Below are positions 3,901-45,992 of a stretch of 64,000 bases of DNA, piece after piece (the first letter of the stretch is position 1; every line of letters begins with the position of its first letter). Source of the DNA: [Zimmermannella] faecalis ATCC 13722 (lineage in GTDB: Bacteria; Actinomycetota; Actinomycetes; Actinomycetales; Microbacteriaceae); the NCBI RefSeq assembly GCF_000381765.1, contig NZ_KB907077.1, positions 1 through 64,000 of the forward strand, given 5' to 3'. A model generated the notes under the pieces. It did no database searches and was not told where the DNA came from. It saw nothing but the letters and a program-made list of their open reading frames with translations. The position numbers were made by a program, and so were the translations under genes.

Positions 3901-5837
3901 GCGGGCAAGGTTTGGGCGGCCTGGGCCCGCGCATCCGCCGCAACCCGCGCATCCGCCGTTGCCTGCGCATCCGTGCCGCCCCGCGCATCCGCCCCCGCAT
4001 CGAGCCGCGCCACAACAACCAGCGCCACCCCGAGCGCGAGCGCGACGCAGAGGGTCGGATACACGGCCGGGCCGGGGAGCCCCGCGGCACCAACCGTGAG
4101 CAGCACGCCCGCGACGCCCGCGCCGATGCGGGTGAGCGCGCGCCGTGGGAGCACGTCGGAGTCGAAACGCATACCGACGAGCGGGAGCGCGGCGAGTGCC
4201 GCCGTCAGGAACGCGGGAATCGCGAGCGCGGAGCGCCCCGCCACGTCGTCACCGTTGGCGGCGAGGTCGACGCCGACAACGGTGATGTGCCAGAGGAACA
4301 TGACCACCGGAACCACCGCGGCAACGGCCGCCGCGATCGTACTGACCTGCACGATCGACCGCCGACTCGGAGCCCGGAGCGGCAGCCGCTGCCAGACGAG
4401 GGCGAGCGCCACGAGCACGGGCAAGGCATAGGGGAGCCCCTGCCCGGGGTCGACCGCGTCGGAGCCAGCGGCCGTCGCGAGCTGCCCCACCTTGTGCCCG
4501 AGCGCGAGCGCGTGCCACGCGACAAGCGCCGCGGCGATGTGCGCGAACGCGCCGAACGGACCGCCCGGCCGCGCGCGATCGTGCCAGAACACGATCGCCA
4601 GCGAGCCGCCGAGCGCGAGCAGCATCGAGACGACCGCGATTGTCGTGTCGACGGTGTCGGTGCGGCCGAGCCCCGCGGCGAGCGGCGCAATCGCACCCGC
4701 GAGCAGTCCGATGCCGAGGTTGAGTCCGACCGGCAGCGGGTCGGGCGCGCGCCCGCCCTCCGGCGTCGACGTGCGCCAGAGCAGGGGAGTTGCCGCGCTC
4801 GCCGCGGCGGCCGCGGCGAACGAGAGCCCCCACAGCGCGTCACCGCCCGGCCGCAACTGGGTGAGGGAAGCGACGAGCAGCAGCACCGCGGGGACCCCCG
4901 TGAGCGCCGCGACGAACTTCGGCGTCGCGAGGCCGCTGAGCCGGGCCCAACCGAGGAGTATCGCCGTGAGTCCGGCGAGCGCCGTGCCCCAGTACGACGC
5001 CGGGTCGGCCACGTCGAGCCCGAACATTCCGAGGGCGCGCACCGCCCAGAAGTCGAGCCCGAGCAGCACGACGCCGAGCACCGCCACGCCCTCGGCCGTC
5101 GCCGTCATCTTGCGGCGCCCGAGCCAGCTCGCGGTGGCGATGACCGTCGCGGTGACCGCGGCCGTGATCAGCGCCTTCACCATCAGGTCGAACAGCACGA
5201 ACGCGACCGTCAAGAACACGATCGCCGCGACCGCGAGGAACGCGATGCCCGTCACGAGCAGCGCGAGCTGCACGCCCGAGCGCTTCGGCTTCGCGGGCTC
5301 TGCGGCCGCGGCCTGCGACGGAGTCGCGCGCGCGCCCCACCCGCCTGCCGCATCCGGCGCCGATGTCATCCAAGCGCCGGCGATCGACGGACGCGCGGGC
5401 TGCGCCGACGGCGCAGTGTCAGGCGTGGATACGCGGGGCTCAGGAGGCGCGGGCGGCGCCGGTGGCGTCGAGCTGATCGGCTCGACCGGATGCACGGGCT
5501 CAGCCGAAATCTCGGGCAGCGGCGGCATCTCGTCGGCAGCGGCAGTGGAGGCGGTAGCTGGCGCCTCCGCCTCGGACTCGATCCGCGTATCCTCGGCCTC
5601 GCGCTGCGTGCCGATGACCCCCTGCAGCAGCTGGCCGCGCAGACTCAGCGCCGTCGCCGCGCGCTCCGAGAGCGTGAAGACATCCGCGAGCCGCGCATCC
5701 GTCAGGTCGAGGCCGCACTCGCCGCAGGCATCAGCGCCCCGCGTCGCGGTGAAGCAGTACGGGCACATCTCGACCGACCGAAGCTGCCGCAACGAGGCCG
5801 GAAACTCCGGATGCTCGCGTCTGCCATCGGTATCCAT
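996..5837 (-). CDS. Giant polytopic membrane protein with N-terminal zinc ribbon (SCO7613 C-terminal domain type)
   Basis: The protein has 1,613 residues. The N-terminus carries a probable zinc ribbon (CPYC...CGEC, residues ~25-42). A proline/alanine-rich cytoplasmic linker follows to about residue 180. The rest is dozens of alanine/leucine/valine-rich transmembrane helices in succession. This plan matches actinobacterial proteins annotated as SCO7613 C-terminal domain-containing membrane proteins, whose function is unknown. ATG 5837 starts just before the conserved zinc ribbon. The sequence is extremely GC-rich, which leaves long open shadow frames on both strands that should be ignored. The gene stands alone, with repeats downstream and a tRNA upstream. 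Identification by architecture is fairly safe; the role is unknown. Confidence 0.85.
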   Translation of the reverse strand: MDTDGRREHPEFPASLRQLRSVEMCPYCFTATRGADACGECGLDLTDARLADVFTLSERAATALSLRGQLLQGVIGTQREAEDTRIESEAEAPATASTAAADEMPPLPEISAEPVHPVEPISSTPPAPPAPPEPRVSTPDTAPSAQPARPSIAGAWMTSAPDAAGGWGARATPSQAAAAEPAKPKRSGVQLALLVTGIAFLAVAAIVFLTVAFVLFDLMVKALITAAVTATVIATASWLGRRKMTATAEGVAVLGVVLLGLDFWAVRALGMFGLDVADPASYWGTALAGLTAILLGWARLSGLATPKFVAALTGVPAVLLLVASLTQLRPGGDALWGLSFAAAAAASAATPLLWRTSTPEGGRAPDPLPVGLNLGIGLLAGAIAPLAAGLGRTDTVDTTIAVVSMLLALGGSLAIVFWHDRARPGGPFGAFAHIAAALVAWHALALGHKVGQLATAAGSDAVDPGQGLPYALPVLVALALVWQRLPLRAPSRRSIVQVSTIAAAVAAVVPVVMFLWHITVVGVDLAANGDDVAGRSALAIPAFLTAALAALPLVGMRFDSDVLPRRALTRIGAGVAGVLLTVGAAGLPGPAVYPTLCVALALGVALVVVARLDAGADARGGTDAQATADARVAADARAQAAQTLPARGRAPFGVAGTALTIASATLLEGFAGIGSALATVALTALALALIATRFIRVAAPGAWLSAAGISVAAIAWGNAFLSPVEWGPAAPLDSLARLFLLTLVPALLLGLGALGAASRLSKHEPPLLAGAGLALALPLGVFPMFALVRDTDGYAVTYFALAALTLALIVAAAISAARHESPGRGPAIALVGIVPVTVTATWALLHTIEGVAAVGQAPIAAMTVAVLALIVRVATRARIDTLATEATNLLVVGAALLWLLLRSWTGPFEVADWLAFAVVLAAPLLSVVAANRHPRWRAAAPWIPAAALALLGPGFVVSTVTGEPLAILVATPVIAVAVTAFIVALARSGRYSGAAAQLAISAVAALFVTNGALVTDWQRYPAAPTLLAINFVVVAVAWRAAPPVGRWVRAAAGTVAAHGVLVGFAAVAAWLLDTWNAQGGLSGWTVSLTLGAATLVGVTLALGATLRILAHSAELAEALRRAIAIAALAATLVTVAVMPVALAVTAARPLDVVAVVAAVPAAIAAVWWWQRDAVGSLIGGVALACASAVAIGVAGLTLLGQLDAYRADVATQVVVTAIAAIGAALTLPRAVSTQLRWPAAWLLLTALPLYFDPLGTWWAIIAASVPALGVAVTTAVRHWRDETAKPRAELFVLALPLLTATMTSELDHGKLALLVTGLAAMIVAFGATLPRAFSVGRALARAGSTGLTIIALLWLWGGGPSPEPYFIGAIGLVSVAGVWLVLRVFPQASVVAERCVYAAGAPVLFTAIVTGVLAETPVATAIGVVVSALVALGVSAVAERVRAGDVVAASLGTLSFTAMGASIAFAEGVEAADVWMLLPVLLCGVAAGAIAMRGRPGLRSFAAVGAPLGLALFVLVNSEGVTPSWWRIGLATVLIVATILVGALGRLQAPLVLGIIAAIAHVFVAGRTVLPDIAIPWWAWLAAAGIVLVFVAATYERRMQQARRIAVGLRAMR

Positions 5838-8444: not shown

Positions 8445-8518
8445 CGGGACGTGGCGCAGTTTGGTAGCGCGCCTGCTTTGGGAGCAGGATGTCGCAGGTT
8501 CAAATCCTGTCGTCCCGA
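8445..8518 (+). tRNA. tRNA-Pro (anticodon TGG), phage integration target
   Basis: The acceptor stem is CGGGACG/CGTCCCG (8445-8451 with 8511-8517) and the anticodon stem is CCTGC/GCAGG with loop TTTGGGA (anticodon TGG at 8479-8481). The T arm is GCAGGTTCAAATCCTGT and the discriminator is A at 8518. CCA is not encoded. The 3' half from 8483 is duplicated at 50408-50445, so the prophage inserted here and restored an intact gene. Confidence 0.95.
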
Positions 8519-8520
8519 CA
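8483..8520 (+). other. attL core
   Basis: These 38 bases, covering the tRNA-Pro 3' half, are identical to 50408-50445. Sequence left of the core matches the tRNA and sequence right of it is phage. A tyrosine integrase gene lies 82 bp to the right, as expected for an attachment site. Confidence 0.93.
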
Positions 8521-8523
8521 AAC

Positions 8524-8570
8524 AAGACCCCGACTCCCCAGTAATTTGCTGGCGAGTCGGGGTCTTTCTC
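8524..8570. terminator. Terminator just inside attL
   Basis: A strong stem pairs AAGACCCCGACTC (8524-8536) with GAGTCGGGGTCTT (8554-8566), with T-rich ends on both sides, so it can act in both directions. It ends transcription of tRNA-Pro on one side and of the leftward integrase gene on the other. Being phage DNA, it replaces whatever followed the tRNA before insertion. Confidence 0.85.
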
Positions 8571-8600
8571 GTTTCCCAGGTTCACTCGCAAATGCGCCCT

Positions 8601-8632
8601 GCTACAAATCCTCTACAAGTCGCACCGGAACC
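8601..8632. repeat. Probable integrase arm-type site, left
   Basis: A 32-bp block starts GCTACAAATCCTCTACAAGT and contains two CTACAARt words 11 bp apart. It recurs at 50261-50292 with 29 of 32 bases identical, in the same orientation, near the other att core. It overlaps the integrase stop codon. Paired direct repeats beside both cores are the usual form of tyrosine-integrase arm sites. Confidence 0.65.
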
Positions 8633-9903
8633 ACCAGCGCACGACGTCGCGCCTCAGACACGGCATCGACGACCTCGTCGAGGCGATCAGGCCAGAGATG
8701 CCCGTACACGTCGAGCGTCATCGTCGCCGACTTGTGCCCGCACATCAGCTGGATCAGCTTCACGTCAGCGCCGGCCGCGATCGCGTTCGACACGGCCGTA
8801 TGCCGCAGCCCATGAATCGTGAACCCGTCGAGCCCAACCTCACGGATTGCTGGCGCCCACACGCGGTTGCGCCAATTCTTGTCATCGAGCGCTTCGCCTC
8901 GAGGTGATTTGAACACCCAGCCGACACGGTCCTTGCGTTCGGTCGCCTCGAGCAGCGCGACCACGTGGGCGGGCAGTGGCACGGTGCGGCGCTCCCAGCC
9001 CTTCGGTGGGCCGATTACCCGCTTCCCTGTCTTGTCGACCGTCCACGTGCTGCGAACCCGCACACGGCGCTTGTGCAGGTCGACGTCACGCCAATCCAGC
9101 GCGCACGCCTCATTGATGCGCAGCCCCGTATAGGCGAGGAACTGCACGAGCGTGTAGCTGACCTGGCCATCCGACTCGTTCACGGCGCGCTTCGGCCGCG
9201 GGATCGTCCTCACTGCGTCGGCGAGCAGCTCCACCTCGAGGTAGCTGAGCGCGGGCGTCTCATCGTCGCCATCGTCAGGCTGGGGGAGCTCGATACGGCG
9301 CAGCGGGTTCTCGGTGATCCAGCGCTGTTCGAGCGCCCACCTCATCGGGGAGCCGAATGCGATCCCGACAATGCCCTGCACGGTCTTCGGCGCGAGCCCG
9401 CCAACATTCCGGCGCTTCGCATCCTGCGAGATCGGCGCCGTGCCGCTCGTGAGCTCATCCACCCACGTCTCGACCGCTGCACGGTCGATCTGCCCGATCG
9501 GCATCGACCCCCATTTGGGTCGCACCCACCGGTCGAGGTCGCGCGTGTACCGCCAGATCGTCGACCCCTTCGCTTTCCGCTTCGACGCGAGCCAGAGCGT
9601 GGCGACGTCGTCGAACGTTTTGCCGGCGTTCTCGGGGGAGGTGTACCGGCCGACGCGGAGGTCTTCGTCGAGACTGGCCGCGTACTCGTCGGCAGCTGCC
9701 CTCGTCGCGTACGTGCGGGTGCGCTGCTTACCCTGCGGGTCGACCCAGCCAACCCGCCAACGGTTCCCCTTCCCGAACCGCGCGGTACGGAATTCGTCGG
9801 GCAGTGACTTGATCTTGCGCAGCTGCGCGGCGGTCGGCGCGACGCGCTCGCCGCCAATGATCGCGGTCTTGGTCCAGAGGTCAGTGACCCAAGATTTCGC
9901 CAT
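8602..9903 (-). CDS. int: Tyrosine site-specific integrase
   Basis: This protein of about 433 residues catalyses integration and excision between attP and the tRNA-Pro attB. The N-terminus carries an AP2/arm-binding-like segment (GNRWRVGWVDPQGKQRTRTY). A SAM-like core-binding domain follows (~residues 85-180), then the catalytic domain: Arg in TGLRINEA (~259), HGLRHT (~364), GHKSATMTLDVYGHL with the nucleophile Tyr ~399. ATG 9903 is chosen because AAAGG stands upstream; a TTG five codons earlier is weaker. It reads toward attL and ends in the proposed arm site. Confidence 0.95.
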   Translation of the reverse strand: MAKSWVTDLWTKTAIIGGERVAPTAAQLRKIKSLPDEFRTARFGKGNRWRVGWVDPQGKQRTRTYATRAAADEYAASLDEDLRVGRYTSPENAGKTFDDVATLWLASKRKAKGSTIWRYTRDLDRWVRPKWGSMPIGQIDRAAVETWVDELTSGTAPISQDAKRRNVGGLAPKTVQGIVGIAFGSPMRWALEQRWITENPLRRIELPQPDDGDDETPALSYLEVELLADAVRTIPRPKRAVNESDGQVSYTLVQFLAYTGLRINEACALDWRDVDLHKRRVRVRSTWTVDKTGKRVIGPPKGWERRTVPLPAHVVALLEATERKDRVGWVFKSPRGEALDDKNWRNRVWAPAIREVGLDGFTIHGLRHTAVSNAIAAGADVKLIQLMCGHKSATMTLDVYGHLWPDRLDEVVDAVSEARRRALVVPVRLVEDL

Positions 9904-9914
9904 GAGAGCGCCTT

Positions 9915-10325
9915 TCAAGCGGTCGCGCGCCAGAGCTGTTCGGCGCGACGGGAGTTAGTGGGGTTTGAGAACCAGGTGCGGAGCATGTGCGGCGTGACCT
10001 CGAGTTCGGTGCACCACCGTTCGGGATGGTCGGGGTAGACGAGGGCGCAGTCGACGACGGTGTCGACGGTGATCAACTGGCCGGCTGCCCAACGGTCGGC
10101 CTGCAGCTCGGTGTGCTCGTCCGAGTGTGAATGCTGATGGAACGCATGGCCGAGTTCGTGCGCGAGCGTGCAACGCTCCTGGATGGGCGTGAGCCCGTGG
10201 CGGAGGGTGATGAGGCGGCGGTCGCGATACCAGCGGCCGGCCTCGTCTTGGTGGCGCCAGCGGACACGAATGCGGTGCAGGTCGGCGTGCTCGAGTGGAT
10301 CCCACATGGGCCGAGTGTCGAGCAT
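9915..10325 (-). CDS. ImmA/IrrE-type metallopeptidase
   Basis: A protein of about 136 residues carries the zinc-protease motif HELGHAFHQH near residue 57 and a downstream acidic EHTELQADRWAAG segment supplying the third ligand. In the ImmA/IrrE family such proteases cleave phage or mobile-element repressors. The next gene upstream is the putative repressor, so that is the likely substrate. The start is uncertain. ATG 10325 lies just downstream of the repressor stop but has GGAGG too close. GTG 10364 would overlap the repressor gene. The order repressor, protease, integrase suggests one leftward operon. Confidence 0.85.
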   Translation of the reverse strand: MLDTRPMWDPLEHADLHRIRVRWRHQDEAGRWYRDRRLITLRHGLTPIQERCTLAHELGHAFHQHSHSDEHTELQADRWAAGQLITVDTVVDCALVYPDHPERWCTELEVTPHMLRTWFSNPTNSRRAEQLWRATA

Positions 10326-12654: not shown

Positions 12655-13020
12655 ATGTCGAAAGAATTCCAGCTCTCGGGTCGACTTCCGAACAGCGAAC
12701 GCAATGGGCTCGAGGCACACGCTCGCGCGTTCCTCGATGTTGATGCGCCGGCGCCGTCGATCGTGATTGCTCGCATCGAGCGCAAGTCGCGGAAGGTCGA
12801 CGACGACACGGGCGATGTGTCGGCGCTCGCGAAGATCACGCACATCGAGGTCGTCGAGGAACCGGAGGAGCTGAACCACATCGAGGAGCTGCTGTCGGCA
12901 CTCGCAAATGCCCGCTCGGGTGACGAACCACTCCCGATGGTGGTGGAGCGTGAGGCGGATCTTGAGTCGCCTACGGATGGGTTCGCGGAGCTCGACGAGA
13001 CGTTCGGGGGTGACCTCTAA
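12655..13020 (+). CDS. Hypothetical phage protein (121 aa)
   Basis: This is a soluble acidic protein with a helical C-terminal half rich in Glu and Asp (HIEVVEEPEELNHIEELL). It starts two bases after the RusA stop and is coupled to the next gene through TAATG. GGAAGG precedes the start. Its position suggests a DNA-metabolism accessory role, but no family is recognised. Confidence 0.7.
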   Translation: MSKEFQLSGRLPNSERNGLEAHARAFLDVDAPAPSIVIARIERKSRKVDDDTGDVSALAKITHIEVVEEPEELNHIEELLSALANARSGDEPLPMVVEREADLESPTDGFAELDETFGGDL

Positions 13021-13508
13021 TGGCTGTCGACGAGATCTGGCGGCCAACGCATATCCGTGGTGACCGCTATGAGGTGAGCAACCTCGGGCGCGTTCGGTCG
13101 AACTGGTGCGGCGGTCGAATCCTGGTTCAGGCGGTCATTCCAGACGATGGCCACAAGACCGTCAAGTTTTTCTTCGACGGTAAGCAACGCAACGTGTACG
13201 TCCACCAGCTTGTGGCTAAGGCGTTTCTCGAGGAAACCGGCCCGCTCGTCCGGCATCTCAATGGTGACCCTGGCGACAACCGCGTCGCAAACCTCGCCTA
13301 CGGAACGAACTCAGACAACATGCTCGACGCCGTCAGGCACGGCACTCTCCCCAATACCGCGAAGACCCACTGCGTCCGTGGACATCAGCTGTCTGGCGAC
13401 AACATCTACGTCTATCCGCGAGGACGCAGCTGGGAGCGAGTTTGCAAGGAATGCAACCGGATCCGCACTGAGAAGTACAAGAACAAGAAGATGGGAGTCG
13501 CAGCGTGA
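13020..13508 (+). CDS. HNH endonuclease with NUMOD4-like N-terminus
   Basis: The 162-residue protein begins with the NUMOD4 pattern EIWRPTHIRGDRYEVSNLGR. An HNH core follows (VHQLVAKAFLEE, VRHLNGDPGDNRVANLAYGT). A C-terminal zinc knuckle is formed by CVRGH and CKEC. These are typical of free-standing homing-type endonucleases in phages. It interrupts the otherwise functional recombination block, so it may be a selfish insertion, yet both its edges overlap its neighbours neatly. Confidence 0.88.
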   Translation: MAVDEIWRPTHIRGDRYEVSNLGRVRSNWCGGRILVQAVIPDDGHKTVKFFFDGKQRNVYVHQLVAKAFLEETGPLVRHLNGDPGDNRVANLAYGTNSDNMLDAVRHGTLPNTAKTHCVRGHQLSGDNIYVYPRGRSWERVCKECNRIRTEKYKNKKMGVAA

Positions 13509-39959: not shown

Positions 39960-40307
39960 ATGCAGGGCACGTTCCGTACCGGGTCGAAACGCATCCGGCG
40001 CATGGTGCTCCGGCTGGAAGGCAGCAACGTCACCGTCACGGACGTGATGCTCCAGCCGGGGCGCAACCCCTCCGGCTGGCTCCCTCACGTGACGGAGTTG
40101 CCGTGGATCGCGGGCGTCATCTCAGGAGGTAGCGCGATGGATCAGGACGTGATCGAACGCTTCGAGCAGCTCGAATCGCTCACCCTCATGCAGGCCGCGC
40201 TTCTGCAATCCCTCGGGGTGAAGGTCGAAGACCTCGAAGCCGGCGGCGGCGGCATCGACCAGCAGGCGATCTACGACGCCTATGTCGAGACGAGGGGCAA
40301 TGGCTGA
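39960..40307 (+). CDS. Tail protein carrying second half of a split carbohydrate-binding domain
   Basis: The first ~45 residues (MQGTFRTGSKRIRRMVLRLE, VTVTDVMLQPGRNPSGWLPH) look like the closing strands of the beta-sandwich begun at the end of the previous gene. The pattern VTDxxLQPG...SGxxPH also occurs in the gene at 43396. A +1 shift at ACT-TAG, just before a run of seven G, would join the two frames. The remainder is helical (IERFEQLESLTLMQAALLQS) and may form a trimerising stalk. Confidence 0.65.
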   Translation: MQGTFRTGSKRIRRMVLRLEGSNVTVTDVMLQPGRNPSGWLPHVTELPWIAGVISGGSAMDQDVIERFEQLESLTLMQAALLQSLGVKVEDLEAGGGGIDQQAIYDAYVETRGNG

Positions 40308-40710
40308 CCTCCGAGATTTGGCGATCCGTACCGCTGAGGATGTGAACCAGCACGCCGCGCTGATCGCGGGCAAGGCGAACATCGAGCACGTGCATACGGC
40401 GGAGGACATTACCGCGGGCACGCTCGCCGCCGCACGCCTCCCCGCCGCGTCCACCAGTGCACGTGGCGGGGTGCAGCTCGCCACCAACGCGGAAGCCACG
40501 GCAGGCACCAACACGGCGAAGGCCGTCACCCCGGCCGGGTTGAAGGCGAAAGTTGATCCGCTCGAAGCGCGCGTCTCCACCGTCGAAGCCGGGCAAGGCG
40601 GCTCAAGCCTCACGAACGTCATGGTCACAAACGGTGTACCCACCGGCTCCGCACCGGTCGGGTTCTGGGCCATCGACGCCACCACGGGCGACTACTACCA
40701 GATGGAGTAA
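40300..40710 (+). CDS. Tail fibre-like minor tail protein
   Basis: The 136-residue protein starts MADLRDLAIRTAEDVNQHAA. It has a collar-like region AARLPAASTSARGGVQLATN and a TAKAVTPAGLKAKV motif as in phage tail fibres and knob proteins. ATG 40300 overlaps the previous stop. The C-terminus VGFWAIDATTGDYYQME resembles fibre tips. Confidence 0.72.
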   Translation: MADLRDLAIRTAEDVNQHAALIAGKANIEHVHTAEDITAGTLAAARLPAASTSARGGVQLATNAEATAGTNTAKAVTPAGLKAKVDPLEARVSTVEAGQGGSSLTNVMVTNGVPTGSAPVGFWAIDATTGDYYQME

Positions 40711-40713
40711 CCA

Positions 40714-41061
40714 ATGGGCTGGCTACGAACCAGGCGGCAGACCACGGGCGTGCGTGACGTTACCTCGCTCTCGGAGTCACCGATCACGTGGGCGCGGCTA
40801 CTGCGCTCGGTCGACAACATCGACCTGTATTTGCAGAACGTGAACGACACTCCCGCGAACCAGACGATCATGACGTTGCCGCCGGGGTTCCGGCCGGGAT
40901 GGACGCGACGCCTCACCTCATCAGCGGCGACCGGGTACGGGTATGTAGACCAGTCGGGCCGGGTGCGGCACTCGACCGCGATCACGAGCCCGACCATCAT
41001 CTACGGCCTGTTCACGACAGCGAATCCGTTCCCTGACACTGATCCGGGGGTGCCTGGCTAA
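40714..41061 (+). CDS. Tandem tail paralogue 1 (WLRR family)
   Basis: The 115-residue beta-rich protein opens MGWLRTRRQTTGVRDVTSLS and has LPPGFRPGWTRRL in the middle. It is the first of six neighbouring genes sharing an N-terminal Trp-Leu/Ile-basic motif, a central LP-GFRP-like turn and, in most, a Pro-rich end. Position in the tail-tip block suggests receptor-binding or decoration modules. The stop overlaps the next ATG (TAATG). Confidence 0.72.
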   Translation: MGWLRTRRQTTGVRDVTSLSESPITWARLLRSVDNIDLYLQNVNDTPANQTIMTLPPGFRPGWTRRLTSSAATGYGYVDQSGRVRHSTAITSPTIIYGLFTTANPFPDTDPGVPG

Positions 41062-41444
41062 TGGCGTGGCTGAAAAAGCATGCGGCAGCGACCGACGAGT
41101 ACGACATCACTGGCCTAATTCCGGTGCCGATCGACGCTGGCCGTCTGTCGGTGGAGAGGGTCGGCGGCATCACGGTTCTGAGCGCGGAGAATATGAAGCT
41201 CGGTGAAATCGCCGGCTCGAATATCGACCTGCTACCGAACGGCACGCTGCCGGTCGGGCTTCGCACTCGACGCTCAAAATGGCACAACATCAGCATGTCC
41301 AACGGGCGGATCGTGCGTATCGCGTTGACCGCTGGCGGTCGCCTCGTCGCCTACTACGCGCAGACGGGCGACGTGCTGCATTTCACGCTGTTGTTCCCGA
41401 CGCCTGGCGCGATGCCGACGACGATGCCGGGGGTGAAACTCTAA
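41061..41444 (+). CDS. Tandem tail paralogue 2 (WLRR family)
   Basis: The 127-residue protein opens MAWLKKHAAATDEYDITGLI, contains LPVGLRTRR and ends MPTTMPGVKL. The ending recurs in paralogues 4, 5 and 6 with variations. It is coupled by TAATG to both sides. Confidence 0.72.
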   Translation: MAWLKKHAAATDEYDITGLIPVPIDAGRLSVERVGGITVLSAENMKLGEIAGSNIDLLPNGTLPVGLRTRRSKWHNISMSNGRIVRIALTAGGRLVAYYAQTGDVLHFTLLFPTPGAMPTTMPGVKL

Positions 41445-41866
41445 TGGCGTGGCTTCGACGCTTCGGCAGTTTCAACACCGGCTGGGTTGACGTGCCGATC
41501 GGCACGGGTGACGGCTGGTGGCTCGACGGCACCGGCACTGTGCAGGTCCGTCGCCGCGGCGGCTCCGATCCCGACCTCGACATGCTCGACATTCGGTTCA
41601 CGAACGTCGGAGTACTCCCCGACGCGCCCGAGTTCGGTTATCTGACCCCGGCAGGGTTCCTCCCAGATGGGTTCCGCGTGTGGTCGCCCGAGCGTGCCGC
41701 GATCAACCTCGGCAACGTGAACGGTAACCGCGAGTACCGGATCCGCATCATGCAGAACTCGCGGCTCCTCTTGCAGCGCGGCGGCGATCAGCCGGGCACC
41801 GGCGTGCAGGCGATCCAGGGCACGCTCTCGCTGCTCGCGTACGCGGCACGACCAGGAGGCTACTAG
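41444..41866 (+). CDS. Tandem tail paralogue 3 (WLRR family)
   Basis: The 140-residue protein opens MAWLRRFGSFNTGWVDVPIG and contains LTPAGFLPDGFRVWSPE. Its C-terminus differs from the others, ending SLLAYAARPGGY. ATG 41444 overlaps the previous stop. It is the most diverged member by its end. Confidence 0.7.
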   Translation: MAWLRRFGSFNTGWVDVPIGTGDGWWLDGTGTVQVRRRGGSDPDLDMLDIRFTNVGVLPDAPEFGYLTPAGFLPDGFRVWSPERAAINLGNVNGNREYRIRIMQNSRLLLQRGGDQPGTGVQAIQGTLSLLAYAARPGGY

Positions 41867-42237
41867 TGGCTTGGCTGAAACGCACGCCGTCGTGGCGGCT
41901 CATTGACGAGCTGTTCCAGAACGTCGAGTCAGTGAACAGCATCCGCGTGCGCAGAACGAACAGCGGGCAGATCGACTACTCGTTCAACGGGCTGAAGCTC
42001 TCCGCAACGGGCGGCATCATCGTGGCCTGGGGCTCGCTGCCGGTCGGCTACCGACCGAACTTCGCGCAGTACGCGGGCCTGCAATCCACCACCGGCAAGC
42101 TGCTCGACCTCACGCTAAATGTGGGCGGCGGAATCGTGTTCTCGGGCGGCGTGATTGGCGAGACGTACCGCGGCAACTTCACGGTGTTCACGAACCAGGC
42201 GATGCCGACAACGCATCCCGGAATCGAGGTGACCTGA
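41866..42237 (+). CDS. Tandem tail paralogue 4 (WLRR family)
   Basis: The 123-residue protein opens with GTG as MAWLKRTPSWRLIDELFQNV, has LPVGYRPNFAQYA and ends AMPTTHPGIEVT. It overlaps its neighbours by one to four bases. Confidence 0.72.
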   Translation: MAWLKRTPSWRLIDELFQNVESVNSIRVRRTNSGQIDYSFNGLKLSATGGIIVAWGSLPVGYRPNFAQYAGLQSTTGKLLDLTLNVGGGIVFSGGVIGETYRGNFTVFTNQAMPTTHPGIEVT

Positions 42238-42626
42238 TGGCTTGGATTCGTCGCCGTGCTCGGCGCACCGGCTGGCGCAACGTCTCAGACGAGCTAATCA
42301 ACGGGTGGGCGGGGATGCTGTTCGTCGCGCGCGCCGATGACGCCGTGTTTTTTCGTGGGAAGCTCGACGGCACGACCGCTACCGCCGCCGCAGCATGGAA
42401 TATCCCGCTCGGGTTCCGCTGCCCGCCAGTCACACACAACGGCAGTTACGACTACGGCGCTTCGCTCGCATGGACGGAGGACAACAACCCGTCGGTGCGT
42501 CGCCTCAACTACTACAACAACCGGCTTGCGGTCATCGGCTACCAGACGAGCGACCGCCTGTTGATCGCTGATTCGTTCCTGACCGTCAACGCTTGGCCGA
42601 TCACACTCCCGGGGGTGGCGGCATGA
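42237..42626 (+). CDS. Tandem tail paralogue 5 (WLRR family)
   Basis: The 129-residue protein opens MAWIRRRARRTGWRNVSDEL, has IPLGFRCPPVTHNG and ends WPITLPGVAA. Same plan as the others with a different middle. Confidence 0.72.
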   Translation: MAWIRRRARRTGWRNVSDELINGWAGMLFVARADDAVFFRGKLDGTTATAAAAWNIPLGFRCPPVTHNGSYDYGASLAWTEDNNPSVRRLNYYNNRLAVIGYQTSDRLLIADSFLTVNAWPITLPGVAA

Positions 42627-42994
42627 GTTGGCTACGGCGACATGACACTGGCCTGCGTGACCTGACCGCGCTGATTGAAGCGCCGGTGACCTCGGGGCGG
42701 CTCCTCACCCGGCGACGCCAGGACAAGCTCATCGTCGTGCTCGATGAGTTGACGTTCACCGACCCGCCGTCGAACGTGACGATGCCGCGGCTCATCGCGG
42801 GCTGGCGGCCGGAATACCGCATCCGCGAACTCTGGTTTCCGTCCATCTCGACGCAGGGCGGCGGCTCCTATGGCATCTCGACGGCGGGCTATTTCAACCT
42901 GTATGGGGCGCAGGCTGGGCAGGCTATCTCGGCGCGTGCTGAGGTCGAAGCGCTCGGCGCGTTCCCGACGACGATGATGGGGGTCGCGGCATGA
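42623..42994 (+). CDS. Tandem tail paralogue 6 (WLRR family)
   Basis: The 123-residue protein opens MSWLRRHDTGLRDLTALIEA and ends FPTTMMGVAA. Its N-terminal third closely parallels paralogue 1 (TGxRDxTxLxExPxTxxRLL), which suggests duplication. It overlaps the previous and next genes by four bases. Confidence 0.72.
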   Translation: MSWLRRHDTGLRDLTALIEAPVTSGRLLTRRRQDKLIVVLDELTFTDPPSNVTMPRLIAGWRPEYRIRELWFPSISTQGGGSYGISTAGYFNLYGAQAGQAISARAEVEALGAFPTTMMGVAA

Positions 42995-43386
42995 AGACTG
43001 ATTGGCAGTCGATTCCGACCGCGGCGAGCGGCCTGAAACCGCAGATGCCTGGTGAGCCGATCCAGTTTTTCCGGGTGAAGCGCGTCGGTGATCGCGCTCT
43101 GGTCGACCTCACCGGGCTTCGCCTCGATACCGAGAAACCCGGCCTGGCGAACCTCGGGCATCTCCCGGATTGGATGCGGCCGGAACTCCCGCACCAATAC
43201 CACTGGGTGAACGATAGCCCAACGTCGCTGCATCCGTCGCTGTGCTCGGTGTACTACGGCCGCACGCTGTACTGGCACGAGACCCTGAAGGACGGGATGC
43301 TGCAAGTGCAGCGACCGACGACGCTCCGCGGCGGGTTCGAGTACACCTGCACGGCACCTATCCCGCCAGAGCTGATCATCCACTAG
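42991..43386 (+). CDS. Minor tail protein (131 aa), unrelated to the preceding array
   Basis: The protein starts MKTDWQSIPTAASGLKPQMP and is beta-rich with a Trp/Tyr/His-rich centre (LPHQYHWVNDSPTSLHPSLC). It lacks the WLRR opening of the six genes before it but is coupled to them by ATGA. A tail-tip or receptor-contact role is inferred from place only. Confidence 0.65.
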   Translation: MKTDWQSIPTAASGLKPQMPGEPIQFFRVKRVGDRALVDLTGLRLDTEKPGLANLGHLPDWMRPELPHQYHWVNDSPTSLHPSLCSVYYGRTLYWHETLKDGMLQVQRPTTLRGGFEYTCTAPIPPELIIH

Positions 43387-43395
43387 GGGGCGGCC

Positions 43396-43872
43396 ATGCG
43401 TCTCGTCTCGCGTATCCCGGCCGGTAAGGGCCGCGTGGCGGCGGTCACGCTCCGCCTGATCTACGACGGTACCGAGACCTCTACGCCTATCGAGGTCACG
43501 GACCTACAGCTACAGCCGGGCGACCCGTCGGGTGTCGTACCGCACCCGCAGGACGTGAAGATCGAGACCGGCGGGCGGCAGTACCGCAACGGCGTGCTAC
43601 CGCGCTCTGATGACACGGTGCTGGTGCTCGCGAACAACGACAGTGCAGCGCCGACGACCGTCACGGTGCGGCCGTCTGGCGTCGGCAACGTCAGGGTCGG
43701 TTCGTACCGGTTCGGCACGATCAACAAGACCGCGACCGTCGACGGTGGCAGCCACACCGCGACCCACGGGCACGGGCTCCCACCGATGCTAACGGAGCGC
43801 TCAGACGGGCACGTACCGGTCGATACGGAAGTGCCGGTGCATCTGACTATCGAGTGGCGCGAGCGCGCCTAG
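43396..43872 (+). CDS. Minor tail protein with carbohydrate-binding-like N-terminus
   Basis: The 158-residue protein begins with strands like the second half of a carbohydrate-binding sandwich (VTLRLIYDGTETSTPIEVTD, LQLQPGDPSGVVPH). These match the pattern in the gene at 39960. A Ser/Thr/His-rich part follows (VDGGSHTATHGHGLPPM). It precedes the GH18 gene by eight bases. The incomplete domain suggests recombination or assembly with the previous product. Confidence 0.65.
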   Translation: MRLVSRIPAGKGRVAAVTLRLIYDGTETSTPIEVTDLQLQPGDPSGVVPHPQDVKIETGGRQYRNGVLPRSDDTVLVLANNDSAAPTTVTVRPSGVGNVRVGSYRFGTINKTATVDGGSHTATHGHGLPPMLTERSDGHVPVDTEVPVHLTIEWRERA

Positions 43873-43880
43873 GAGGCCAC

Positions 43881-45992
43881 GTGAGCGACCGTATTTGGTG
43901 TTGGACGGGGCATTTGTTCAATGACAGGACGCGCCTCGTCTTGGAGCATTACGGCGACCAGATCACCGACCTGTCGATTTTCGGCTGGCGCGTCGACGCG
44001 GCCGGGAATCTGACCGAGACGTTCGATGCTGATTTGCTCGACCCGTACCGGGCGAAGTGGCCGCACATCAAGTTCTGGCTCGCGTTCCGCAACGACGGCG
44101 ACGCGAGCATTTTCACGGCGCTCCGCAACAACGCTTCGGCCCGGGCGAACCTGATTGCGGGGCTCACGGCCGCGCTGGATGCTCGCCCGTGGCTCGGCGG
44201 GATCGATATCGACCTTGAGCAGGGCGGCGGCATCGCGAACGCTCCCGCGGCAGAGGCGTTGTTTCAGCAGATTGCCGACCTCGCACACTCGCGTGGCCTC
44301 GAATGCTCGGCGGCTCTGCCTCCGCTCACCATCGACGGCAGCGTGGGTGGGCAGGATTGGGCACGCTACGCGCAGCTGGGGCAGATTCTCGACCAGGTCG
44401 CGATCATGAGCTACGACTTCGCGTGGATGGGCAGCGCGCCTGGCCCGATCAGCCCTGGTTATTGGATGCGCGGCGTCTACGAGTGGGCCGTGAGACAGAT
44501 CGAGCCGTCCAAGATTCTCATGGGCTTGCCGCTGTACGCCTATTTCTGGCGCATCGAGACCTATCCGGCGAACCTCGGATGGCGATACCGCGGCGACTCC
44601 GGTACGTACTATGCGGCCTGGCAGCACTTCTCCGGGGTGCGCGCGCAGGACGGTAGCGACACCAACCCGGCAGGCTCCGGCAGCCATCACCGCATCGGGT
44701 GGCTCGCATTCCGCGAACTCGACTCGATGAGCGCGTGGGGCTTCACGGATGTGTACGACTGGCGCGACGCCTACTACTGGGATTCCGGTACACCTGCGAT
44801 GACGCGCGACCTGTTCGAGGCGAAACCGTACATGGTGCGCTACGGGCTCCCGTCTGCGCTCGATCAGGGCGGAATGTGGGGCGTCACCGACAACTCGAGC
44901 GACTCGGAGGGCGGCCTGTACCGGCTGAACGCGCGCAGTGTGCGCGACGTAAACGGCCAGTACGTCTCACCCAAGTCGGGGTTCACGATGACCCTCGAAC
45001 TCCTGAAACGCTATCCGGTGGCGGCGACGATCATGGACGACAACGCGGGGAACGCGCAGCAGCTGTCCAATTACTACAACGGCGACTGGGAGCAGTGGTC
45101 AAACGAGACTCGCAGCTATCACCAGTACCGGGGTACGGGCCAGCTCGACCTCGCGCACAGCTTCGGCGGCTCCGTCTACCTGCAGATTCGCGGGCAATTC
45201 GCCACGGCGGGCTGGATCGGCGTCACCGCCAGGGGTTACACGGTGGAGGTCAACAACACCGGCAGCCTGCGTATCCGGCAGGGGTCGACGGTGCTCGGCA
45301 CCGCGTCCGTGCCGTCACGCGCGGTTGGGGATGACGCCGGCGAATCACGGTTCGTGCTCGCGATCCGGCTCCGCGAGAACAGCGTGCGGGCGTACTGGGC
45401 GGCCGGGGAGAACACCGCACCCACCCGCTACCTCAAGGTGAACGCGACGCCCTCGGGCGGCACGGTCGGCATCACCGCCACGGCCACCGCATGGATTGAT
45501 CACGTCTATGTCGGTGACGGCTGGTGGTATCAGCCACGCGAAGCCGTGACGGTGAAGATCGGCGGCCGGTCGAAGACCCTCGGCAGGTTCGAGCGCGACG
45601 GCATCACCTGGGATGACAAGGGCAGGTTCCGGCCGGTCGATGACGTAGACGAAGACGCCACCCGCGCCGACGAAACCCGCTCCATCTCGCTCGACTGGGT
45701 TTACGACCACTGGGAAGACGTGCCGATCTATCCCGACACCCCGACCGATGTGGAGGTCATTGCGACCGATCATGACGTGTGGGTGGGCCGCGTGATCTGC
45801 CTCGACAAGGCCGGTTCGTTTATCGCGTATTGGTCGGACGCCGAAACCATCGTGCACTGGCGCGACCGTGCACGTCTCGATTACGGGCTTGCGGGCATCG
45901 CCCTCTGGTCACTCGGCCAGGAGGATACGCGCACCTGGTCGCGTCTGCGCGGCGGCGAACTCACTCCCGAAACTAAGCGGCTTGACCGTTGA
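43881..45992 (+). CDS. Tail glycoside hydrolase, GH18-type, with inserted lectin-like domain
   Basis: The 703-residue protein has a GH18 barrel start (ITDLSIFGWRVDAAGNLTET). The catalytic motif GGIDIDLE (DxDxE, ~residues 107-114) follows, then LDQVAIMSYDFAWMG and ILMGLPLYAYFW. The barrel seems interrupted at about residue 370 by a beta-sandwich domain (~370-560, GNAQQLSNYYNGDWEQW). It resumes with the final strand GLAGIALWSLGQEDTRTW. GTG 43881 has AGGAGG upstream. It probably cuts cell-wall or surface polysaccharide during adsorption. Confidence 0.85.
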   Translation: MSDRIWCWTGHLFNDRTRLVLEHYGDQITDLSIFGWRVDAAGNLTETFDADLLDPYRAKWPHIKFWLAFRNDGDASIFTALRNNASARANLIAGLTAALDARPWLGGIDIDLEQGGGIANAPAAEALFQQIADLAHSRGLECSAALPPLTIDGSVGGQDWARYAQLGQILDQVAIMSYDFAWMGSAPGPISPGYWMRGVYEWAVRQIEPSKILMGLPLYAYFWRIETYPANLGWRYRGDSGTYYAAWQHFSGVRAQDGSDTNPAGSGSHHRIGWLAFRELDSMSAWGFTDVYDWRDAYYWDSGTPAMTRDLFEAKPYMVRYGLPSALDQGGMWGVTDNSSDSEGGLYRLNARSVRDVNGQYVSPKSGFTMTLELLKRYPVAATIMDDNAGNAQQLSNYYNGDWEQWSNETRSYHQYRGTGQLDLAHSFGGSVYLQIRGQFATAGWIGVTARGYTVEVNNTGSLRIRQGSTVLGTASVPSRAVGDDAGESRFVLAIRLRENSVRAYWAAGENTAPTRYLKVNATPSGGTVGITATATAWIDHVYVGDGWWYQPREAVTVKIGGRSKTLGRFERDGITWDDKGRFRPVDDVDEDATRADETRSISLDWVYDHWEDVPIYPDTPTDVEVIATDHDVWVGRVICLDKAGSFIAYWSDAETIVHWRDRARLDYGLAGIALWSLGQEDTRTWSRLRGGELTPETKRLDR

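Follow-up and report, generated by a model that had tools for sequence, protein, structure and literature searches.

The array of small genes behind the tail-tip and fibre-shaft genes of a prophage in [Zimmermannella] faecalis ATCC 13722 is a real, well-bounded system whose parts belong to established types (receptor-binding heads; phages that carry more than one receptor-binding protein, RBP). It occupies a slot between the fibre-shaft gene U and the conserved gene H, and both single genes and whole gene sets of this slot are exchanged between phages. We think it fairly likely that the array encodes exchangeable receptor-binding heads of a siphophage tail, which would dock through a short common start (the tag) and be mixed on each virion. 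The window analyzed in this study is a stretch of 64,000 nt (contig NZ_KB907077.1, positions 1 to 64,000), and its relevant features are listed below.

40282..40710, +: U, fibre-shaft protein with the proposed docking site at its end; tail-fibre PHROG matches
40714..41061, +: A, tagged head, 115 aa; C-terminal part of phrog_3971 (E 2.3e-10) and array profile
41044..41071, +: junction repeat left of B, 82% identical to 41427-41454; contains TAATGGCGTGGCT
41061..41444, +: B, tagged head, 127 aa, exchanged position; array profile; two genes there in L003-L006 and L008
41427..41454, +: junction repeat right of B, 82% identical to 41044-41071; contains TAATGGCGTGGCT
41444..41866, +: C, tagged head, 140 aa, most diverged of the six; array profile (14.6 bits)
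41866..42237, +: D, tagged head, 123 aa, GTG start; phrog_3971 (E 3.4e-5) and array profile
42237..42626, +: E, tagged head, 129 aa; phrog_3971 (E 1.1e-12) and phrog_6614 (E 2.9e-6); pLDDT 87.5
42623..42994, +: F, tagged head, 123 aa; phrog_3971 (E 9.2e-5) and array profile
42991..43386, +: G, seventh member, 131 aa, without tag; array profile (12.0 bits vs. 2.8 for shuffles)
43396..43872, +: H, conserved gene closing the slot, phrog_4065 type; PHROG match; the homology of phage L147 restarts there

The original prediction described six tandem, overlapping and diverged paralogues at 40714-42994, and this was confirmed by leave-one-out profiles. Each member was scored with a profile of the other five and compared to 1000 shuffles of its own sequence, with residues one to six left unshuffled in half of them. 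The scores ranged from 14.6 to 47.4 bits and exceeded all 1000 shuffles for every member, with C as the weakest case (14.6 bits vs. 12.2 for its best shuffle). The best pair within the window, A and F, shares 41% identity over 70 residues. The gene G had been overlooked. As it beats its shuffles and the sister-phage gene K5 (55% identity to G) carries the tag, the array has seven members, of which G has probably lost the tag.

All six genes A to F open with [M/V]-[A/G/S]-W-[L/I]-[K/R], as predicted (Met-X-Trp-(Leu/Ile)-basic; D opens with GTG). Neighbouring frames overlap by one base at the junctions A/B, B/C, C/D, and D/E and by 4 nt at E/F and F/G, and a gap of 3 nt separates U from A. The list of open reading frames holds an alternative longer TTG start for F at 42593. 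The two other signatures that had been proposed are less uniform. The common LP turn is exact in four of the six proteins (LPPGFRP in A, LPVGLRT in B, LPDGFRV in C, and LPVGYRP in D), whereas E (IPLGFRC) and F (LIAGWRP) have a looser version. The PTTMPGV-like ending holds for five (PDTDPGV in A, PTTMPGV in B, PTTHPGI in D, PITLPGV in E, and PTTMMGV in F) but is absent from C. At 40700-40716, the stop codon TAA of U, a CCA, and the ATG of A lie in one frame, an arrangement from which no read-through of U into A is claimed.

The unit of the array is a known type of tail-protein head, which the original prediction had also missed. Four proteins (A, D, E, and F) align with the C-terminal ~120 residues of phrog_3971 (E 1e-12 to 9e-5), and E also with those of the minor tail protein family phrog_6614 (E 2.9e-6). 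The match of B to phrog_6614 is weak (E 0.016) and no PHROG match was obtained for C; both are tied to the family through the array's own profile. In Pfam, no array member had a match above the cut-off. With 115-140 aa, the head covers almost the entire protein in A to F, and is not the C-terminal end of a longer tail protein. With E as query, 32 Arthrobacter phage records were retrieved at 26-36% identity, and in three Arthrobacter phage examples the match was the C-terminal part of a protein of ~275-325 aa. The queries A, F, and K5 gave no matches in the phage collection, and a search of the viral contigs with B alone returned only the window's own provirus. The head domain was found at E < 0.01 in 41 of 83 viral-contig stretches, mostly closing a longer frame; the stretches had been selected by a WPTTLPG-coding motif, and the fraction is uninformative on frequency. 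One of these frames (L074, 2447-3595, minus strand) contains two consecutive head domains. Against solved structures, the family profile reached a chain named 'receptor-binding protein' at E 0.011, with antibody chains at similar E-values.

Structures were predicted for two members, E and C, and the statement on the fold refers to these. The AlphaFold2 model of E, built with 47 aligned sequences, reached a pLDDT of 87.5 and a pTM of 0.80. Its best match in a second structure aligner was gp15 of Listeria phage PSA (Z 11.6, 111 aligned residues, rmsd 2.8), followed by a Pseudomonas phage tail needle (Z 11.2) and the lactococcal phage RBPs of TP901-1 (Z 9.3) and p2 (Z 8.8). Giant-virus-type proteins (Z 7-8) and the heads of reovirus and adenovirus (Z 5-7) scored lower. 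Foldseek gave E-values above 0.001 for all solved structures, and nine predicted viral proteins at E ≤ 0.001 (best 1.9e-6), four of which were named Arthrobacter phage minor tail proteins. The model of C is weak (pLDDT 65.2), with lactococcal RBP heads as best matches (Z 8.8-9.3). The predicted structure of E, and weakly that of C, thus resembles the all-beta receptor-binding head fold of phages. Unrelated folds had been named as a sign against the array; in the two of six members modelled, both predictions were head-like, which leaves the reading standing. The proposal of a receptor-binding cassette is well supported at the level of sequence and models by the homology to tail-protein C-termini, the predicted fold, and the position behind Dit, tip, and shaft, and the suggested decoration function is not favoured.

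The prophage in the window has the order integrase, terminase, portal, head protein, tape measure, Dit, tip, S, U, array, H, and GH18. At 8445-9918, the integrase gene (8605-9918) adjoins a tRNA-Pro gene, the likely attachment site. The early region holds an HNH endonuclease gene with a NUMOD4 motif (13020-13508), which is probably of the homing type. The minor tail protein encoded at 43854-45992 contains a GH18 (chitinase-like) domain and is conserved in Microbacterium phages. Judged by the tip and GH18 proteins, the closest named phage is Glutamicibacter phage Montesquieu (48-49%); the other records are mostly from Microbacterium phages, with ~34-37% for those listed. Montesquieu encodes a single 62-aa protein between its shaft gene and its H relative, and has neither an array nor a U-type ending on the shaft. 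The prophage L148 of Agrococcus casei (tip 59%) has H directly after the S match, and neither U nor the array was matched in its comparison with the window. H was found in two of 398 genomes of the window's family, one of them the window's own.

The exchange of a single gene is seen in a related phage, represented by the viral contigs L003-L006 and L008 (L007 is the window's own provirus). Its longest contig shares 92-95% nucleotide identity with the window in two main blocks, with Dit only 66% identical. The five contigs agree over the compared 2.9 kb apart from a 25-nt deletion in L006, and were counted as one haplotype for this reason. The deletion, near 4834, takes out the start and tag of the gene B' and may reflect either a genuine loss or a faulty assembly. 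Between the window and this phage, one nucleotide differs in A, one in C, none in D, four each in E and F, and 16 in G. In B, ~325 nt (41072-41397) are replaced by ~707 nt, so that two genes take the place of one: B', 53% identical to F, and B'', 47% identical to B. The break falls where the tag codons end; B is flanked by the 28-nt junction repeats, which are 82% identical and have TAATGGCGTGGCT in common. Invertible switching was considered as well; long inverted repeats were not seen at the array.

A whole set is replaced in the sister phage L147. Its S, U, H, and GH18 proteins are 85-91% identical to those of the window (87-91% for U, H, and GH18), with 83% for the tip and 64% for Dit. The nucleotide homology ends at 40729, sixteen bases into A and within its tag, and restarts at 43396, the first base of H; in between, only 214 nt in G match. 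The slot of L147 holds six different tagged genes (K1-K6). The tagged genes thus number six in the window and seven in the L003-type phage. G is 55% identical to the tagged K5 and 60% to M9, an untagged gene of a more distant array.

This array belongs to the genome G769 of another family, in which eight tagged genes (M1-M8) and the untagged G relative M9 stand behind a U-like gene. When 13 window proteins (A-G, U, S, H, GH18, tip, and Dit) were compared with 14 kb of G769, only B, C, E, F, G, and residues 109-142 of U were matched (E 59%, G 60%, F 37%); S, H, GH18, tip, and Dit had no match in these 14 kb. In G781, a genome of the same genus, a U-like gene whose product has this conserved end precedes an array of five or more tagged genes. 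In the direct comparison with the window proteins U alone was matched, and the array of G781 was linked by a BLAST match of N4 to B (E 2e-6) and by the family profile. The first tagged gene in this fragmentary assembly (L179, 476-813) is apparently frame-broken. In G771 (L180, 1285-1863), a shaft starts like those of G769 and G781 and a fused head replaces the conserved ending, a different layout of the device that needs just one gene. With the family profile, matches were obtained in at least 14 of 398 genomes sampled from the family of the window and in at least nine of 396 genomes of its order, three of the nine being from the same family and including the window's own; these counts are lower bounds, as the searches scored part of the first-look candidates. 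Four of 47 genomes of the family of G769 have a match. Neighbouring copies occurred in G000 (six) and G240 (three) in the family set, and in G000 and G769 (five) in the order set. Arrays with starts other than the tag also exist. L052 (1994-3833) encodes a full fibre of 287 aa followed by two copies (168 and 157 aa) whose short N-termini start with MVIGNL and MIGNL, an independent array whose members have another N-terminal segment in common, and two genes of G240 start with MSAPTL.

A FastTree phylogeny was calculated for 25 members; their sequences are short and the deep branches unresolved. Groups across phages were well supported for E and M8 (1.0), G, M9, K5, and K1 (0.997), B and B'' (0.974), and F, B', and M4 (0.963). 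Because such groups span phages, the members appear, from their sequences, to be older than the sets that now hold them. M5-M7 group with N1 and N2 (0.876), and these genes look like a lineage-specific expansion. Cross-phage relatives (E/M8 59%, G/M9 60%, F/B' 53%) show higher identity than A and F, the most similar two genes of the window, which points to an exchange of old cassettes. The predicted diversification by duplication therefore covers one part of the process: copy number varies and M5-M7 resemble local duplicates, but whole old cassettes are exchanged too, and exchange weighs as much as duplication.

The tag (M-small-W followed by basic residues) was found in 27 distinct genes over the window, L003, L147, G769, and G781, and the untagged relatives across these five arrays are two, G and M9. 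In the window, [A/G/S]W follows the start codon at 6/6 array starts vs. 11/2029 other start codons opening at least 70 aa; in L147, the ratio is 6/6 vs. 3/631 other start codons. The tryptophan at position 3 is present in 27/27 genes, which are not independent in G769 and G781, since genes there were partly recognised by the tag start. Position 2 is Ala in 18 genes, Gly in six, Ser in two, and Arg in one, with all four Ala codons in use. Positions 5 and 6 are each basic in 20/27 genes, encoded by several codons. The head profile matched 21 of the 27 tagged genes at E ≤ 0.001, eight of them by construction as profile seeds, and left M2, M3, N3, N5, K4, and K6 unmatched. M3 resembles M1 by BLAST. 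K4, M2, and N5 form one separate family, with similarity to a tail-fibre domain of E. coli phages and to an inner part of phrog_5207 and phrog_6614. Two or more module families thus carry the tag, which speaks for an independent role. For K6, neither a phage record nor a convincing solved structure was found, and an H-type lectin was reached only at E 0.2.

The last ~34 residues of U are conserved in phages with tagged arrays (aligned in four phages), with 54.5% identity over 33 residues between U and the U-like protein of G769 (E 1e-8). The 38-aa version of this end from G769 was unmatched at E ≤ 1 among 50,697 phage records, for which such a short query is insensitive. That it is the connector preceding the head in long fibres is not supported: three connector profiles gave 1.5, 4.5, and 7.1 bits with U, and 7.3, 14.4, and 12.0 bits with the best shuffles. 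The end of U could be a generic fibre motif.

Our preferred explanation is that six tagged and one untagged single-domain heads are each the equivalent of a long minor tail fibre that is reduced to its head. The overlapping stop/start junctions would probably couple the translation of the heads, which as virion proteins would bind a receptor, such as a sugar. The tag would most likely be a short plug docking on one common site, and the conserved end of the upstream-encoded shaft U is the best guess for this site. One virion would then carry a mixture of heads with different specificities, and a mixed complex at the tail tip, as in the original prediction, is plausible. Recombination between phages would lose, gain, or swap whole heads; such swapping would be possible because the cassettes have a common tag and similar junctions. 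Docking on U is consistent with the phages without an array, which have no such ending (Montesquieu) or no U match (L148), and with G769, which has array members and the end of U in common with the window without matches to the five flanking genes, as well as with G771, whose fused head takes the place of that ending. Against docking stands the absence of the tag from G and M9, its deletion from B' in L006, and the different starts of the arrays in L052 and G240. The strictest version, with a six-residue plug on unrelated modules, the ~34 residues of U as socket, five to eight heads per virion, and trade in single genes, is offered tentatively, and we would be slightly less surprised to see it fail than hold. 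The tag may merely travel with the gene start and not be selected for docking. It is possible, if rather doubtful, that it marks common descent or serves as a recombination or initiation signal and that the heads attach otherwise. The tag does sit at the junction where exchange occurs, and its tryptophan has a single codon, so that conservation of protein and DNA is inseparable at this residue. The use of all four Ala codons as well as Gly, Ser, and Arg at position 2, the several codons at the basic positions 5 and 6, and the tag on a second module family speak against a signal of this kind.

The heads might instead form fixed hetero-oligomers of defined composition, for example hetero-trimers, and not be interchangeable alternatives. 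The known phage RBPs with a PSA/p2/TP901-1-like fold are trimers according to the accessible part of PMC7291167, the actinophage Mysterious has a hetero-trimer of gp35, gp36, and gp37 according to the extract available from PMC13252515, and overlapping junctions would favour similar amounts of the proteins. However, the tagged genes number six, seven, or eight, and B was exchanged while its neighbours stayed almost unchanged, and we regard a fixed complex as unlikely. A store, in which the virion makes use of a single gene or a few and the others are spare parts for recombination, would fit the recombination observed at the junctions, but all six frames of the window are open with tight overlaps and long inverted repeats were not seen at the array; this reading is quite improbable. 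Fibre chaperones are often encoded directly behind fibre genes, which is the position of the array. That its proteins are chaperones or assembly factors for the upstream fibre is nevertheless very improbable, as the resemblance in sequence and fold is to fused head domains at the termini of structural tail proteins.

Among the known systems close to the tag-docked heads proposed here, the Arthrobacter phage minor tail proteins of phrog_3971 and phrog_6614 have a homologous head domain, also in neighbouring genes (for example Korra gp1-2, Darby gp22-23, and Argan gp17-19). In these phages the head ends a longer shafted protein, whereas the arrays comprise six to eight copies of a free-standing head that has just a short tag in front. 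The heads of Listeria phage PSA gp15 and lactococcal p2 and TP901-1 are similar to the predicted fold of E, without a sequence match to the array beyond chance level. Their anchoring differs: the RBP stems of TP901-1 are held by another baseplate protein, BppU (PMC7291167, accessible part). As far as the available text goes, these phages have one RBP type each, in contrast to the several head genes here. In the portion of PMC11414711 at hand, the branched tail-spike complex of Ackermannviridae combines several receptor-binding proteins per virion, with conserved N-terminal linking parts, variable C-terminal specificity, and recombination between genes. These are large spikes with dedicated linking domains, whereas the array belongs to a siphophage and encodes single-domain heads that bear a short peptide. 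Searched with Pfam profiles, no array member gave a match above the cut-off that could stand for a gp10-like or XD linking domain, and the stretch before the head is too short for one. In mycobacteriophage Mysterious, gp35, gp36, and gp37, with a beta-sandwich-like domain, form a baseplate hetero-trimer (PMC13252515, preprint, in the extract available). Three differently encoded proteins thus combine in an actinophage baseplate, a comparison made by description only; cassette exchange, as seen in the array, is not described in that extract. No precedent for a minimal common start with one-gene cassettes in a siphophage was listed in searches of the open-licence PMC literature.

If our reading is true, the array would be a compact way for a simple siphophage to hold many receptor specificities, so far described mainly for phages with large tail spikes. 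The tag would be a sequence handle for finding further arrays, and the head domain of phrog_3971, now in PHROG families of unknown function, would gain a likely role. The swapping of tail heads would become testable in a small system with one peptide, one candidate socket, and single-gene cassettes. The different sets in the same slot suggest a plug-in system for changing what the phage holds on to.
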